From Halobacterium wangiae (GTDB lineage: Archaea > Halobacteriota > Halobacteria > Halobacteriales > Halobacteriaceae), in NCBI RefSeq assembly GCF_021249345.1, contig NZ_CP089588.1, positions 1,426,001-1,490,000 on the forward strand: a stretch of DNA of 64,000 nucleotides, written 5' to 3'. A model generated the notes under the pieces. That model worked only from the letters and a program-made list of their open reading frames with translations, was not told the DNA's origin and did no database searches. The position numbers and the translations under genes are program-made. Shown one piece after another: positions 15,261 to 48,147 of the stretch; the first letter of the stretch is position 1; the number at the start of each line of letters is the position of its first letter.

Positions 15261-15449
15261 CGTTTTTCGCCCGAGCGGCGACTACCTCCGTGTATGCAGT
15301 CCGCTCCCACCCGCTGGCGCTGGCGTACGTCGGGAGCGGACAGTCTCGCGTTCGCGGCCTGACGGGCGTCACTCGCTCGGGTCGGACGCGTTGCTCCCTC
15401 CGCTTTCTTCGCGCACCACTCCCCGACCAGCCGAACCCACAGCCAACAC
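15261..15449 (+). promoter_or_regulatory. trpS1 leader region with nested inverted repeats
   Basis: A T-rich box GTTTTTC (15261-15267) lies about 28 nt before a short ORF. GTCCGCTCCC (15299-15308) pairs perfectly with GGGAGCGGAC (15332-15341); the 23-nt loop holds both Trp codons of the leader ORF. The right arm can instead pair with GCTCCC at 15393-15398, followed by CGCTTTCTTCGC. The main trpS1 start has no W-rich box at about -26. The layout suggests mutually exclusive structures governed by translation of the Trp codons; the mechanism is inferred. Confidence 0.55.
15294..15362 (+). CDS. Candidate Trp leader peptide upstream of trpS1
   Basis: This 22-codon ORF (ATG 15294, TGA 15360-15362) encodes MQSAPTRWRWRT followed by ten further residues. 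It has two Trp codons (15315 and 15321) separated by one Arg. Its ATG is about 28 nt after the T-rich box, so it would be the first, probably leaderless, ORF on the transcript. The Trp codons lie in the loop of a perfect 10-bp hairpin. It precedes the tryptophanyl-tRNA synthetase gene by 87 nt. That it is translated is inferred from position and codon content. Confidence 0.55.
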   Translation: MQSAPTRWRWRTSGADSLAFAA

Positions 15450-16583
15450 ATGACAGACGACTCCGTCACGCCGTACGCCGTCGCGGGCGACGTCGACTAC
15501 GAGAAACTGCTCGCCCGCTTCGGCGCGGACGCACTGACCGACGACCAACGCGCGCGGTTCCCCGACCACCCACTGGTACGCCGTGGCCTGTTCTACGCGG
15601 GCCGCGACGTCGAGGAGTTCCTCGCCGCCGACCAGCAGTCCATCGTCACCGGCATCGGTCCCTCGGGCCCGATGCACCTCGGGCACGCGATGGTGTTCTA
15701 CTTCGCGAAGCGCCTACAGGACGAACTCGGCGCCCGCGTCTACGTCCCGCTGTCGGACGACGAGAAGTACTGGTTCAGGGACCAGACGCCCGCGGAGACC
15801 GGCGAGTACCTCCGGGAGAACCTCCGGGACCTGCTCGCGGTCGGCTTCGACCCCGAGTTGACGCGGTTCGTCGTGGACACGAAGGACGCCGACGTCGTCT
15901 ACCCGCTGGCGACGGCGTTCGGGAAGGACGTCACGTACTCGACGCTGGAGAGCGTGTACGGCACGCCAGACAACGTCGGCCAGGGGTTCTATCCGGCGGT
16001 CCAGACGGCCCACCTGCTGTTGCCCCAGCTGGTCCACGGCGAGCACGAGACGCTCGTCCCCATCGCGGTCGACCAGGACCCCCACGTGCGGGTGAGCCGC
16101 GACGTCGCCGCGAAAGCCAGATACCCCGTTGGGAAGCCGGGCGCGCTGCTGATGCAGTTCCTCCCGTCCCTCGGTGGTCCGGGGAAGATGAGTTCCAGTG
16201 AGGGCGTCGCCGTCCGCCTGACCGACGACCCCGACACCGTCCGGCGGAAGATCCGGAAACACGCCTACACGGGCGGCCAGTCGAGCGTCGAGGCCCACCG
16301 CGAGAAGGGCGGGGACCCCGAGGTGGACGTGCCGTTCCAGTACCTCTCGGCGTTCTTCGAACCGGACGACGAGGAACTCGACAGCATCGAGCGAGCGTAC
16401 CGCGCGGGTGAGTTGCTCTCCGGGGAACTGAAGGAACTCGCCGCCGACCGCATCGTCGAGTTCCTCGAGGGCCACCAGGCGCGACGCGACGAACTCGGGG
16501 ACGTCGAGGCCGAACTCGCGGCCTACCGGCTCACCGAGGCCGAACGCGAACGCGCGCGGGACGCGGTCGGGTTCGACTACTGA
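15450..16583 (+). CDS. trpS1: Tryptophanyl-tRNA synthetase 1
   Basis: This class I enzyme charges tRNA-Trp. The 377-residue archaeal/eukaryal-type TrpRS has HLGH at 76-79 after TGIGPSGPM, the KMSKS loop KMSSS at 246-250, and DQDPHVRVSRDVA typical of the family's tryptophan/ATP pocket. A second TrpRS gene (43117) is in the same window, so one may be conditional. Only this copy has the Trp-codon leader, which would fit a charged-tRNA-responsive gene. The transcription start is probably upstream of the leader. Confidence 0.95.
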   Translation: MTDDSVTPYAVAGDVDYEKLLARFGADALTDDQRARFPDHPLVRRGLFYAGRDVEEFLAADQQSIVTGIGPSGPMHLGHAMVFYFAKRLQDELGARVYVPLSDDEKYWFRDQTPAETGEYLRENLRDLLAVGFDPELTRFVVDTKDADVVYPLATAFGKDVTYSTLESVYGTPDNVGQGFYPAVQTAHLLLPQLVHGEHETLVPIAVDQDPHVRVSRDVAAKARYPVGKPGALLMQFLPSLGGPGKMSSSEGVAVRLTDDPDTVRRKIRKHAYTGGQSSVEAHREKGGDPEVDVPFQYLSAFFEPDDEELDSIERAYRAGELLSGELKELAADRIVEFLEGHQARRDELGDVEAELAAYRLTEAERERARDAVGFDY

Positions 16584-43116: not shown

Positions 43117-44673
43117 ATGACTGACACCGACGACGACACGGACGCCGACGGGGACGCGCCGGGTGCCGACAGCGTCGCGCTCGACCCGTGGGGCTCCTCG
43201 ACGGTCTCCGACTACCGGAAGCTGTTCGAGGAGTTCGGCATCGAGTCCTTCGAGGACGTCATCGACGAGGTGCCCGACCCCCACTTCCTGATGCGGCGGG
43301 CCATCATCTTCGGCCACCGCGACTACCGCCCTGTGCTGGAGGCGATGCGCGACGGCGACCCGTTCGCCGCGCTCTCCGGGTTCATGCCGACGGGCGACCC
43401 CCACATCGGCCACAAGATGGTGTTCGACGAGATCATCTGGCACCAGCAGCAGGGCGCCGACGCCTACGCGCTCATCGCGGACCTCGAGGCGCACGCCGCC
43501 CGCGGCCTCTCGTGGGACGAGATCGACGACCACGCCGAGGACTACCTCCTCAGCCTGCTCGCGCTCGGCTTCGACGCCGAGGCGGGCACGCTCTACCGGC
43601 AGTCCGCGAACCGCGAACTCCAGGACCTCGCGTTCGAACTCGGCGCGGAGGCGAACTTCTCGGAGTTCGAGGCCATCTACGGCTTCGACGGCGAGACGGA
43701 CGTCTCCCACATGCAGAGCGTCGTCACCCAGATGGCGGACATCCTCTACCCCCAGCTCGGCGAACCGAAACCCACGGTCATCCCGGTCGGCCCGGACCAG
43801 GACCCCCACATGCGCCTCGCGCGCGACCTCGCGGAGCGCACCCGGTTCTTCAAGGTGACCGAGGCGTACGCGAGCGTCGCCTTCGACGACGACGAGCGCC
43901 CGCTGGTCGCCGCCGCCTACGATGTCCGCGAGCAGTACGCCGAGGACGCCGACTCGCCGCGCTGCACGGAGGCTGCCGACTGGCTCCGCGACGACCCCGC
44001 CGTGGCGGGCGAGTTCGACGACGAGACGGTCGACGCCGTCGTCGAGAAACTCGACAACGCCGGGATGGAGCCGCTGCGCCCCCGTGTCCGGTTCTTCGAC
44101 CGGCAGGCGACCGACGAGGCGTTCGAGGCGCTGATCGACGCCGTCGCCGGCGAGAAGCGCGTCTTCGAGGGCCACGTCGACGCCTTCGAGATGAGCCACG
44201 AGACCGCCGAGGACCTCGCGCTCGGCGTCGAAGTCGACCACGGCGGCTACGGCTTCGTGCCGCCGTCCTCGATCTACCACCGCTTCATGACCGGCCTCAC
44301 GGGCGGGAAGATGTCCTCCTCGATTCCCGCGAGCCACATCAGCCTCCTCGACGACCCCGAGGCGGGCTACGACAAGGTGAAGTCCGCGACGACCGGCGGC
44401 CGCGAGACGGCGGAGAAGCAGCGCGAACTCGGCGGCGAGGCCGACGACTGCCCCGTCTACGAACTGTACGCCTACCTGCTCGCGGGCGACGACGACGAGT
44501 TCGCCGAGCGCGTCTACGACGAGTGCGTCGGCGGCGAACGGCTCTGCGGGGACTGCAAGGAACAGGCCGCCCAGCTGATGGAGGAGTTCCTCGCGGACCA
44601 CCAGGAGAAACGCGAGGAGGCCCGCGAGGTGCTCGACGACCTGGACGTCGTCCTCGACTCTGCGCGCGTCTAA
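43117..44673 (+). CDS. trpS2: Tryptophanyl-tRNA synthetase 2
   Basis: A second TrpRS. The 518-residue protein has HIGH in DPHIGH (96-99) after SGFMPTG, VGPDQDPHMRLARDLAERT and a KMSKS loop in GGKMSSSIPASH. It is longer than TrpRS-1 by an inserted acidic region (about 300-370) and a C-terminal extension containing CVGGERLCGDC. It lies 4 nt after endA, with no Trp leader. Two TrpRS genes in one genome are known in haloarchaea; which is the housekeeping enzyme cannot be read from sequence. Confidence 0.93.
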   Translation: MTDTDDDTDADGDAPGADSVALDPWGSSTVSDYRKLFEEFGIESFEDVIDEVPDPHFLMRRAIIFGHRDYRPVLEAMRDGDPFAALSGFMPTGDPHIGHKMVFDEIIWHQQQGADAYALIADLEAHAARGLSWDEIDDHAEDYLLSLLALGFDAEAGTLYRQSANRELQDLAFELGAEANFSEFEAIYGFDGETDVSHMQSVVTQMADILYPQLGEPKPTVIPVGPDQDPHMRLARDLAERTRFFKVTEAYASVAFDDDERPLVAAAYDVREQYAEDADSPRCTEAADWLRDDPAVAGEFDDETVDAVVEKLDNAGMEPLRPRVRFFDRQATDEAFEALIDAVAGEKRVFEGHVDAFEMSHETAEDLALGVEVDHGGYGFVPPSSIYHRFMTGLTGGKMSSSIPASHISLLDDPEAGYDKVKSATTGGRETAEKQRELGGEADDCPVYELYAYLLAGDDDEFAERVYDECVGGERLCGDCKEQAAQLMEEFLADHQEKREEAREVLDDLDVVLDSARV

Positions 44674-44715
44674 CTCCGACGTACTGTCTGACGGCCTGGC
44701 GCGCTGGCGGAACGC

Positions 44716-44929
44716 TTTTTGCGGGGCGTGCCATCCCCTCCCACATGGCGTCCGAACCCCACGCCGGTCGCACGGGCCACAAGCGAGTTGCTGCTCCCGG
44801 GTTCGGCTTCTTCTTCGCCTGAGCGGGCCGGTGGAGGCTGCTGCGAGGTGGGAACCTCGCCGCGGCGGAAACCGCTCGTTCGGGCTCGGTTCGGAACGGA
44901 TAACTGACTGCCACACACGCCTACGCACA
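44716..44929 (+). promoter_or_regulatory. pheST leader region with nested inverted repeats
   Basis: A T-run (44716-44720) lies about 25-29 nt before a Phe-rich short ORF. CCGAACCC (44752-44759), at the start of the ORF, pairs with GGGTTCGG (44799-44806), which overlaps its first Phe codon. GGTTCGG at 44888-44894 is a competing partner. After the ORF, GCGAGGT (44843-44849) and ACCTCGC (44854-44860) form a hairpin with a GGGA (GNRA) loop, extended by five further pairs after one mismatch. Control by translation of the Phe codons is inferred. Confidence 0.55.
44745..44822 (+). CDS. Candidate Phe leader peptide upstream of pheST
   Basis: The 25-codon ORF (ATG 44745, TGA 44820-44822) ends in GFGFFFA: Phe codons at 44802, 44808, 44811 and 44814, four of the last six codons. 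It begins where a leaderless transcript from the upstream T-rich box would start. It precedes the PheRS alpha gene by 107 nt. The arrangement mirrors the bacterial pheM-pheST attenuator peptide, though the sequence is unrelated. Translation has not been shown. Confidence 0.6.
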   Translation: MASEPHAGRTGHKRVAAPGFGFFFA

Positions 44930-46438
44930 ATGAAACTGCCAGCACAGCAGGTCGCGGTGCTCGAAGCGGCGAGCACCGACGAACCACGACGAATCGACGA
45001 CCTCGCGGCGGAACTCGGAGCGCCGCCGGAGACGGTCACGGGCGCGGCGTTCGAACTCGCAGACGCCGGCCTCGTGGACGTCACCGAGGAGACCACAGAC
45101 GAGGTCGAACTGACCGAGGAGGGCCGCGAGTACGCCGACGCGGGCCTCCCCGAGGTGCGGCTGTACGAGGCCGCCCTCGACGCGGGCGCGGACGACGAAC
45201 CCGTCCAGATGGGCCAGATCATCGGCGCGTCGGGCCTCGAGGGCCCGCAGGTGGACATCGCGCTGTCGAACTACGCCCGGAAGGGGTACGGCGCCATCGA
45301 CTCGGGCGCGCTCGCCGCTGACCCGAGCGCCGACCCCGAAGACGACGCCGAGAGCGAGGCGCTCCGCGCGCTCGCCGACGGCGAATCGGTTCCCGAGGAC
45401 GCGCCGCTCGACCAGCTAGAGCGCCGGGACCTCGTGGTGCGCCACGAGCGCACCGTCCGCTCCGTCCAGTTGACGGAGGCCGGCGTGACCGAACTGATGG
45501 CGGGCGTCGAGGCCAGCGACGCGGTCGGCCAGCTCACCCCCGAACTGCTCGCGTCCGGCGAGTGGCGGGACGTCGAGTTCGCCGACTACAACGTCGCGGC
45601 CGACGCCGCCGAACACACGCCCGGGAAGGTCCACGTGCTCCGGCAGGCCGCCGAGCGCGTGAAGGAGGTTCTGGTCGGGATGGGCTTCCAGGAGATGGAC
45701 GGCCCGCACGTCGACGCGGACTTCTACATCAACGACTGCCTGTTCATGCCCCAGGACCACCCCGCGCGCAACCACTGGGACCGCTTCGCGCTGTCGAACC
45801 CCGAGAAGATAGACAACCTCCCAGCGGACCTCGTCGAGCGCGTCGAAGCGGCCCACCGCGAGGGCGCCGGCCCGGACGGCGACGGCTACCACTCGCCGTG
45901 GGACGAGGACTTCGCGCGTGCGCTCGCGCTACGCGGACACACGACGAGTCTCACCGCCCGCTACCTCTCCGGCGTCGCCGGCGAGGACGTCGACCCGCCG
46001 GAGCGGTACTTCAGCGTGGGGAAGGCCTACCGGAACGACACCCTCGACGCCACCCACCTCCTGGAGTTCTTCCAGATCGAGGGGTGGGTGATGGCCGAGG
46101 ACCTCTCGGTGCGCGACCTGATGGGGACGTTCCGGGAGTTCTACAGCCAGTTCGGCATCACGGACCTCGAGTTCAAGCCGACGTACAACCCGTACACGGA
46201 GCCGAGCTTCGAGCTGTTCGGCCGCCACCCCGAGACCGGGGAACTCATCGAGATCGGGAACTCCGGCATCTTCCGCCCGGAGATGCTCGAACCCCTGGGT
46301 GTGGAGGCCGACGTGATGGCGTGGGGGCTCGCCCTCGAGCGCCTGCTGATGCTCGTCACCGGCTTCGAGGACATCCGGGACGTCCACGGGACGCTGTGTG
46401 ACCTCGAGTTCCTGCGGGACGCGGAGGTGGTGTACTGA
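44930..46438 (+). CDS. pheS: Phenylalanyl-tRNA synthetase alpha subunit
   Basis: The catalytic subunit of the (alpha beta)2 PheRS. The 502-residue archaeal/eukaryal-type protein has N-terminal winged-helix DNA/RNA-binding modules (about 1-190) and a class II core. Motif 2 is in the RYFSVGKAYRNDTLDATHL region, the Phe pocket in EFFQIEGWVM and GNSGIFRPEML, and motif 3 in GLALERLLM. ATG 44930 is chosen over an in-frame ATG at 44831. GGATAAC at 44897-44903 might be a weak second promoter. The stop overlaps the pheT start by one base (TGATG). Confidence 0.96.
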   Translation: MKLPAQQVAVLEAASTDEPRRIDDLAAELGAPPETVTGAAFELADAGLVDVTEETTDEVELTEEGREYADAGLPEVRLYEAALDAGADDEPVQMGQIIGASGLEGPQVDIALSNYARKGYGAIDSGALAADPSADPEDDAESEALRALADGESVPEDAPLDQLERRDLVVRHERTVRSVQLTEAGVTELMAGVEASDAVGQLTPELLASGEWRDVEFADYNVAADAAEHTPGKVHVLRQAAERVKEVLVGMGFQEMDGPHVDADFYINDCLFMPQDHPARNHWDRFALSNPEKIDNLPADLVERVEAAHREGAGPDGDGYHSPWDEDFARALALRGHTTSLTARYLSGVAGEDVDPPERYFSVGKAYRNDTLDATHLLEFFQIEGWVMAEDLSVRDLMGTFREFYSQFGITDLEFKPTYNPYTEPSFELFGRHPETGELIEIGNSGIFRPEMLEPLGVEADVMAWGLALERLLMLVTGFEDIRDVHGTLCDLEFLRDAEVVY

Positions 46439-48147
46439 TGCCCGTCGTCGACGTCGACCCCGACGAACTCCGCACGCTCACCGGCCACACCGAGAAGAGC
46501 GACGACGAACTCAAGGACGACCTCTTCGGCCTCGGCATCGAGTACGAGGGCGAGACCGACGAGGGCGAGTTCAAACTCGAGTTCGAGGCCGACCGCCTCG
46601 ACCGCCTCTCCGTCGAGGGCATCGCCCGCAGCCTGCGCTACCACTACGGCGACACCCGGGGCGTCTACGTCCCCGACACCAACGGCGCCGAGTGGACCAT
46701 CCAGGTCGAGGACGTCCCGGAGGAACGGCCGTACGTCACCGGCGCCGTGATCCGAGGCGTGGACCTCGACGAGGACGCCCTCGACTCGCTCATCCAGCTC
46801 CAGGAGAAGCTCCACGCGACGATGGGGCGCAAGCGCGCGAAGGGCGCCATCGGCATCCACGACCTGACGATGCTGAAAGGCGAGGCCGGAGTGGACGAGG
46901 GCGACCCCGAGCGTTCGATCACCTACACGGGCATCGGGCCGGACGAGGACACCTTCGTCCCGCTCGACGACGACGCCGAGCGCACGCCCGGCGAGGTGCT
47001 CACCGAACACCCGACCGGCGAGCAGTATGCCGACCTGCTCGCGGAGTACGAGTCGTACCCCGCCATCTACGACGACATCGGGTTGTTCAGCTTCCCGCCG
47101 GTCATCAACGGCCGCCGCACGGAGGTCTCCACGGAGTCCCGCGAACTGTTCGTCGAACTGACGGGCACCGACCAGTGGACCATCGACCGGATGTGCGCCA
47201 TCATCTGTTACGCGCTCGACGCCCGTGGCGCCACCGTCGAGGACGTCACCGTCGAGTACCCCGACAGGGAACTCGTCCGGCCGGACTTCGAGGTCAGGGA
47301 GAAGCGCGTCGGCCACGACCGCATCGAGACGCTGCTCGGCATCGACCTCGCGCCCGACGACGTGGTCGACCTCGCCGAACGCGCAGGTCTCGACGCGGAA
47401 CCCGTCGGCGAGGAGTACCGCGTCGAGATTCCGCCGTACCGCGTCGACGTGCTCCACCCGGTCGACATCGTCGACGACGTCGGGCGCGCGTACGGGTTCA
47501 ACGAACTCGTGCCACGCTACCCCGACGTGAGCACCATCGGCGGCCGCACCGAGGAGTCCCGCCTCGAGTCCGCCGCCCGGCAGGCACTCGTCGGCGCCGG
47601 CTTCGAGGACCTGCTGAACTTCAACATGACCAGCGAGGCCGAGAACTTCGACTCGATGCGGCTCTCGCCCGATTCCGGCGACACCGTGGTCGGCGCCGCG
47701 GAACCGGCGACCATCTCGGAACCGTACAGCGAGGACTTCACCATCCTCCGCACGTGGGCGCTCCCGTCGCTCGCGACGGTGCTGGAGAACAACACCCACC
47801 GGTCGTACCCCCAGAACCTCGCCGAGATCGGGTTCGCCGCCCACGTCGACGACAGCGAGGAGACGGGTGTCGCCGAGCGCCGCACCGTCGCCGCGGTGCT
47901 CGCGGACCACGACGCCTCCTACGAGGACGCGAAGGCCCGCCTGCAGGCGCTCTGCGAGGAGTTCCACGTCGACCTGGAGACGCCGCCGACCGACCACCCG
48001 TCGTTCATCGACGGCCGCACCGCCAGCGTCGTCGTCGACGGCGAGGACGTGGGTGTCATCGGCGAACTCCACCCCGCGGTCATCGTCGACCACGACGTCG
48101 AGGTGCCGGTCGCCGGCTTCGAGTTCGAACTCGACGCGCTCCGGTAG
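46438..48147 (+). CDS. pheT: Phenylalanyl-tRNA synthetase beta subunit
   Basis: The beta subunit holds the B3/B4 editing domain that removes Tyr from tRNA-Phe. At 569 residues it is the short archaeal/eukaryal form. Seen in order: an N-terminal VDVDPDELRTLTG part, the B3/B4 region (MGRKRAKGAIGIHDLTML, FSFPPVINGRRTEVS), the B5 DNA-binding-like domain (RPDFEVREKRVGHDRI) and a pseudo-catalytic class II fold ending HPAVIVDHDVEVPVAGFEFE. It is translationally coupled to pheS and convergent with pyrD 29 nt downstream. Confidence 0.96.
   Translation: MPVVDVDPDELRTLTGHTEKSDDELKDDLFGLGIEYEGETDEGEFKLEFEADRLDRLSVEGIARSLRYHYGDTRGVYVPDTNGAEWTIQVEDVPEERPYVTGAVIRGVDLDEDALDSLIQLQEKLHATMGRKRAKGAIGIHDLTMLKGEAGVDEGDPERSITYTGIGPDEDTFVPLDDDAERTPGEVLTEHPTGEQYADLLAEYESYPAIYDDIGLFSFPPVINGRRTEVSTESRELFVELTGTDQWTIDRMCAIICYALDARGATVEDVTVEYPDRELVRPDFEVREKRVGHDRIETLLGIDLAPDDVVDLAERAGLDAEPVGEEYRVEIPPYRVDVLHPVDIVDDVGRAYGFNELVPRYPDVSTIGGRTEESRLESAARQALVGAGFEDLLNFNMTSEAENFDSMRLSPDSGDTVVGAAEPATISEPYSEDFTILRTWALPSLATVLENNTHRSYPQNLAEIGFAAHVDDSEETGVAERRTVAAVLADHDASYEDAKARLQALCEEFHVDLETPPTDHPSFIDGRTASVVVDGEDVGVIGELHPAVIVDHDVEVPVAGFEFELDALR

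Follow-up and report, generated by a model that had tools for sequence, protein, structure and literature searches.

The genome of Halobacterium wangiae raises the question of what a short open reading frame (ORF) with clustered phenylalanine codons is doing upstream of pheST, the genes for phenylalanyl-tRNA synthetase (PheRS), and whether it could control them. The ORF lies in the stretch of 64,000 nucleotides analysed here (contig NZ_CP089588.1, positions 1,426,001 to 1,490,000; hereafter the window), in the spacer that follows a trpS-like gene (43117-44673). An earlier note on this DNA had described 25 codons ending in F-G-F-F-F-A at a distance of 107 nt from pheS, and the letters of the window confirm this layout: the leader ORF MASEPHAGRTGHKRVAAPGFGFFFA occupies 44745-44822 of the + strand, with ATG at 44745, the stop TGA (44820-44822) directly after F-G-F-F-F-A, and the pheS ATG at 44930. 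The features of the locus are as follows.

44710 to 44721, + strand: leader promoter, with a BRE-like GAACGC and a T5 box, the T-run starting 29 nt 5' of the ATG.
44745 to 44822, + strand: leader ORF, in frame in 64 of 81 loci and of constant phase in 52 of 53 in the frame-blind test.
44752 to 44759, + strand: 5' arm of helix P1, CCGAACCC, nt 8-15 of the predicted mRNA, recognized by covariation.
44799 to 44806, + strand: 3' arm of P1, GGGTTCGG, codons Gly19-Phe20-Gly21, with 97% of cells paired and compensatory changes.
44802 to 44816, + strand: putative sensor codons Phe20, Phe22, Phe23 and Phe24 (F-G-F-F-F), from the leader alignment.
44825 to 44877, + strand: P2, an outer helix, an internal loop YGGA / CGAAA and a variable inner hairpin, from the alignment and RNAalifold.
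44893 to 44906, + strand: proximal promoter-like box GGAACGGATAACTG, adjoining pheS.
44930 to 46438, + strand: pheS (PheRS alpha), the proposed target gene downstream of the leader.
46438 to 48147, + strand: pheT (PheRS beta), identified by position and length.

The leader ATG is located 29 nt past the start of the T-run (T5 box, 44716-44720), and a T-run starts 29-30 nt upstream of the leader ATG in 58 of 63 loci. Genome-wide, T-runs are most frequent 28-31 nt upstream of an ATG (134 cases at 29 nt vs a background of about 19), which, being far over background, is the signature of leaderless genes in the H. wangiae genome. The spacing of the Phe leader equals this leaderless-promoter distance, as expected for the leaderless first ORF proposed in the earlier note, and the position of the T-run predicts a leaderless transcript. 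A scan covering 87% of the genome found only 59 short ORFs with a T-run box, the Phe leader ORF among them, and no further convincing case of an amino-acid leader. A GGATAAC box near pheS, formerly placed at 44897, does exist but occupies 44898-44904, one base further on. Boxes similar to GGAACCGCTAACTG also adjoin pheS in many loci of lineages devoid of the Phe leader. The proximal box is probably a promoter in at least some species and may provide a second transcription start there; it could thereby bypass the leader, which weighs against Phe sensing.

For comparison, 80 pheS loci from named haloarchaeal genomes were added to that of the window, and the upstream regions of these 81 loci were searched for the run of Phe codons. 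An in-frame leader was found in 64 of them, distributed over Halobacteriaceae, Natrialbaceae, Haloarculaceae, Haladaptataceae, Natronomonadaceae, Natronoarchaeaceae and Haloferacaceae. The common plan is M-A-P/S-E-P/S-H, a variable middle, G-F-G-F-F-F, one to three codons (typically A(R)) and the stop; four Phe codons are present in 40 of the 64 leaders and at least three in 63. Relatives thus do possess the Phe run, the lack of which the earlier note had given as a refutation. A covariance model built from 46 sequences (R1) has matches in 305 of 391 haloarchaeal genomes, which represent 76 of 86 genera, and a genome normally has a single match (E 5.9e-20 in the H. wangiae genome itself), and all 47 strong matches that were fetched lie directly upstream of pheS. 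Second matches as further leader copies were dismissed as noise, as they are weak (at most 30.3 bits) and none precedes pheS, two being antisense to the real element. Among 295 genomes drawn from the phylum, R1 had no match outside the same order. On the pheS tree, presence and absence of the leader require about 7 changes vs 14 with shuffled labels, in keeping with an ancient element that has disappeared from several lineages; given these losses, the leader is not essential. Decayed copies are found in Halomicrobium katesii and Halocatena. In three Halarchaeum loci the place of the leader before pheS is taken by a longer ORF (about 102 aa) that by eye resembles an ACT domain. One pheS locus (L022), on a contig filed as Candidatus Pacearchaeota, groups inside Natrialbaceae on the tree, and the contig is probably misbinned.

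The earlier note had also proposed that the 5' end of the leader pairs with sequence over the first Phe codon. This pairing, P1, is an exact 8-bp complement in the window (44752-44759 with 44799-44806) and is conserved and covarying across the leaders. RNAalifold, applied to the leader alignment, gave unprompted both P2 and P1, in which nt 8-16 pair with the Gly-Phe codons. In the alignment count 96.2% of cells are paired, with 78 double-change cells vs 26 ± 4 in shuffled data, while helices slid along the alignment as controls have only 21-55% of cells paired. The 5' end of P1 is fixed, CGA beginning at nt 9 in 63 of 64 leaders. In two Haloferacaceae both arms have changed together and the first Phe codon has been lost, namely in Halobellus (CGGACCCG/CGGGTCCG, GSGFFF) and Halolamina (CCCGAC/GTCGGG, GVGFFF); P1 pairing is thus held even against a Phe codon. 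The P2 internal loop YGGA / CGAAA is near-invariant, and the inner stem varies freely yet stays paired. A GNRA-capped hairpin seen previously at 44843-44860 exists, but it is the mere tip of P2 and its GNRA loop is not conserved. In most species 13-18 nt separate the last Phe codon from the start of P2, which is approximately the distance from the codon of a stalled ribosome to its front edge. Halobacterium salinarum has kept the leader, with the peptide MVPEPQIRC..GFGFFFDA, and P1 and has lost P2, its locus representing a natural P2 deletion.

Several other structures were considered and rejected. The Phe codons (CGGUUUC) could pair with the 3' strand of P2 (GAAACCG), but perfectly only with the Gly codon GGT, and this pairing is not conserved; a helix between the 5' arm of P1 and GGTTCGG (near 44887), which appeared in the minimum free energy structure of the full leader in the window, is absent from the other aligned sequences; and a hairpin around the stop codon (GCCCGG-UGA-CCGGGC) is limited to Natrialbaceae. 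By inspection, P2 is not a simple kink turn, its loop being 4x4 and not 3x0.

A second leader, with Trp codons, precedes trpS1 in the same window.

15263 to 15267, + strand: T-run (T5) in the promoter box of the Trp leader, CAACGTTTTTCG, a box of the type that precedes the Phe leader.
15294 to 15362, + strand: Trp leader ORF MQSAPTRWRWRTSGADSLAFAA, upstream of trpS1 (match to covariance model R2, 1.5e-28).
15301 to 15308, + strand: 5' arm of Trp P1, nt 8-15, from covariation.
15332 to 15339, + strand: 3' arm of Trp P1, from covariation.
15450 to 16583, + strand: trpS1, the gene that the Trp leader presumably controls.

A Trp-containing leader ORF is present in 27 of 30 trpS1 loci. The Trp covariance model R2 has matches in 158 of 391 genomes and 49 of 86 genera, and all 44 matches comparable with trpS1 coordinates are directly upstream of trpS1. 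The Trp counterpart to which the earlier note had pointed is thus conserved and has the 5' architecture of the Phe leader: its P1 is at nt 8-16, in the same place, with covariation (arms CCACTTCC/GGAAGTGG in Haloferax plasmids vs CCGCTCCC/GGGAGCGG in Halobacterium). The Haloferax plasmid leaders are exactly 23 aa long and contain W-R-W. RNA structure that overlaps the sensor codons and shows compensatory changes is present in Phe and Trp leaders alike, and in these two cases the clustered codons match the amino acid of the gene, Phe before pheS and Trp before trpS1. Two unrelated peptides with matching codons, before the matching synthetases and on the same 5' scaffold, constitute the strongest argument for amino-acid sensing.

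The Trp leader region also has a second conserved element, GCTCMCTC..CTTTCTC, further downstream. A three-element switch, in which the P1 3' arm would pair with GCTCMCTC, was rejected, as it lacks covariation and Haloferax alters P1 while keeping the GCTCMCTC element. Second Trp-leader copies precede a TrpRS paralogue in two genomes (G350:C52:79207-79350 and G230:C19:81801-81943), and second R2 matches in two others (G225 and G274) each precede a gene. A Trp-leader-like element with the same P1 and without Trp codons (MSAPNASAGRSRERTVRSAA) is located before a gene for a GNAT-type acetyltransferase (L315:149-871, G220:C1); R2 also has another match in G010, a related genome.

Conservation, reading frame (see below), the RNA helices, linkage to pheS only and the Trp sibling point to a Phe-sensing leader peptide acting in cis on pheST, to which we assign a probability of about 0.7. 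We infer its operation as follows. RNA polymerase would start at or beside the leader AUG, as judged from the box at 29-30 nt, and produce a leaderless mRNA extending into pheST, on which ribosomes would translate the 25-codon ORF. With ample Phe-tRNA the ribosome would complete the leader and depart, P1 would close over nt 8-16 right behind the AUG, and P2 would fold. When charged tRNA-Phe is scarce, the ribosome would stall on F-G-F-F-F, that is, on the P1 3' arm and the following bases, so that P1 would stay open, while in most species the front edge of the stalled ribosome would stand against P2. The open state would result in higher pheST expression and restore charged tRNA-Phe. A ribosome stalled on W-R-W would cover most of the 5' arm of Trp P1, and one stalled on F-G-F-F-F the 3' arm of Phe P1; as P1 would be blocked in both stalls and the freed partner differs, P1 itself, and not an alternative partner, is probably the switch. 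Against the proposal, the stall codons precede the 3' arm in the Trp leader vs lying in or after it in the Phe leader, so that a single pairing switch does not fit both; the loss of P2 in H. salinarum, the repeated loss of the leader and the missing conserved terminator before pheS also count against it. Closed P1 would also hinder new initiation, because its 5' arm is immediately behind the leaderless AUG. The output step may be termination, decay or translation. We favour a reduction of premature termination or decay of ribosome-free leader RNA rather than a U-tract terminator of the bacterial kind; such RNA may be subject to decay or to factor-dependent termination.

The best surviving alternative, although an unlikely one, is attenuation of the PheM type, in which the intrinsic terminator would be either P1 together with the U-rich Phe codons or a hairpin further downstream, and a stalled ribosome would favour an antiterminator. 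UUCUUCUUC directly follows P1, with T5 or longer there in 33 of 64 loci, and T-stretches and hairpins are reported to terminate transcription in Haloferax (PMC7237163). The U-rich Phe stretch is transcribed before the ribosome arrives, and termination there would therefore not report Phe. Between the leader stop and pheS, however, TTTT occurs in none of the 64 loci, which makes a bacterial-type terminator there unlikely; a scan of the leader in the window found no terminator-like site on the + strand; and the Trp family has no U after P1. For the P1 arms, neither RNAalifold nor inspection of the alignment revealed a conserved alternative partner or a mutually exclusive antiterminator pairing. 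The claim that the leader acts in the same way as PheM is not supported, in view of the missing TTTT and of the Phe codons lying in or after the P1 3' arm.

Slightly less probable still is a structured RNA that is recognized by a protein or tRNA and not translated (PheRS autoregulation via P2, or a T-box-like mechanism), the ORF being incidental. P2, with its almost invariant internal loop and freely varying paired stem, does resemble a recognition site, but the frame and the stop are kept despite varying spacing. In a frame-blind test, a 6-bp P1 followed by U-rich sequence was sought with the reading frame ignored: in all 53 loci found, the ATG is exactly 8 nt before the P1 5' arm (ATG at nt 1), arm-to-arm phase is constant in 52 over 11 different spacings, and an in-frame stop follows within 45 nt in 52, the sole exception being a metagenome bin (L069). 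Furthermore, TTC and TTT freely replace each other across the leaders, with Phe retained, and Trp codons replace Phe before trpS1. No Rfam family, including T-box, matched anywhere in the window at the gathering threshold, and P2 is absent in Trp leaders and H. salinarum. The phase and stop data, together with the class-wide R1 matches, support the translated leaderless ORF with Phe codons that the earlier note had assumed.

An independent small protein that merely precedes pheS is highly improbable. It would be consistent with the ORF having its own promoter and short conserved ends, and the authors of the Haloferax study allow small proteins for upstream ORFs (uORFs) generally (PMC4983044); on the other hand, the two conserved ends are the P1 arms and sensor codons, and no strong copy occurs elsewhere. 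The middle of the peptide is hardly conserved and the third-position excess is small (153 vs 118 and 125 substitutions), so the peptide product is probably not what selection keeps. Short ORFs are common in GC-rich DNA, but a chance ORF in an intergenic spacer is refuted by conservation (64 of 81 loci, 305 of 391 genomes), the promoter spacing and the frame-blind phase.

The Phe-sensing leader can be compared with published transcripts. Mapping of transcription start sites (TSS) in Haloferax volcanii by dRNA-seq (PMC4983044, Table 2) lists uORFs of 26 aa before pheS (HVO_2948) and of 23 aa before the gene for a Trp-tRNA ligase (HVO_A0127); the pheS start is in the long-5'-UTR class, 150-250 nt upstream, and the table reports no added TSS for either gene. 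The two uORFs have the size and place of the Phe and Trp leaders, the length of the second being exactly that of the Haloferax plasmid Trp leaders, and are very probably the same objects. The table thus supports a single transcript for leader and pheST in H. volcanii and contradicts, in this species, a pheS start only near the GGATAAC box, which the earlier note had named as counter-evidence. That note had called the control system undescribed; both uORFs were tabulated already in 2016, though not interpreted. The section with that table lists them as small proteins, with no mention of Phe or Trp codons, RNA structure, conservation or a control function. Its Table 2 also contains uORFs of 17 aa before two HTH-10 regulators and of 23 aa before an SNF-family transporter, which may belong to similar systems. 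According to a general statement in the uORF4u paper, attenuation is a mode of regulation by uORFs in archaea as well. Our searches of the open literature, in which the Haloferax Ribo-seq papers were covered incompletely, found no description of an archaeal leader-peptide attenuator.

Leader-peptide attenuation is a textbook bacterial mechanism, and the features of PheM used here for comparison are general knowledge. As in PheM of E. coli pheST, a short, apparently translated ORF with clustered Phe codons is located upstream of pheST and sensing of charged tRNA-Phe is expected. Unlike PheM, the haloarchaeal leader is on a predicted leaderless mRNA, has no U-tract terminator before pheS and no shared sequence, carries its putative sensor codons within the 3' arm of the 5' helix or downstream of that arm rather than before it, and possesses a conserved P2 with a purine-rich internal loop. 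TrpL-type attenuators likewise combine amino-acid-specific codon runs with helices that a stalled ribosome would disturb; the haloarchaeal Trp leader, in contrast, precedes TrpRS and not trp biosynthesis genes, and its P1 arm has a constant position, nt 8-16, following a leaderless AUG. T-box riboswitches are also found upstream of aminoacyl-tRNA synthetase genes, and bind tRNA directly with no need for translation; the haloarchaeal leader differs in having no Rfam match.

Read jointly, the two leaders would represent the first class-wide ribosome-mediated amino-acid sensing in Archaea, a reading to which we give even odds. Leaderless Phe and Trp peptides would control PheRS and TrpRS by gating a helix at the 5' end (nt 8-16), with an origin independent of bacterial attenuators and without a U-tract terminator. 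The helix would possibly govern whether ribosomes re-initiate at the leaderless AUG and, through this, whether factor-dependent termination or decay follows; the scaffold would have been reused with other codons before the GNAT gene. If this is true, archaea sense aminoacyl-tRNA by coupled transcription and translation, and the Phe and Trp leaders give a reason for the existence of some leaderless uORFs. The leaders of Haloferax and Halobacterium would then offer a simple testable system for the influence of the archaeal ribosome on downstream expression.
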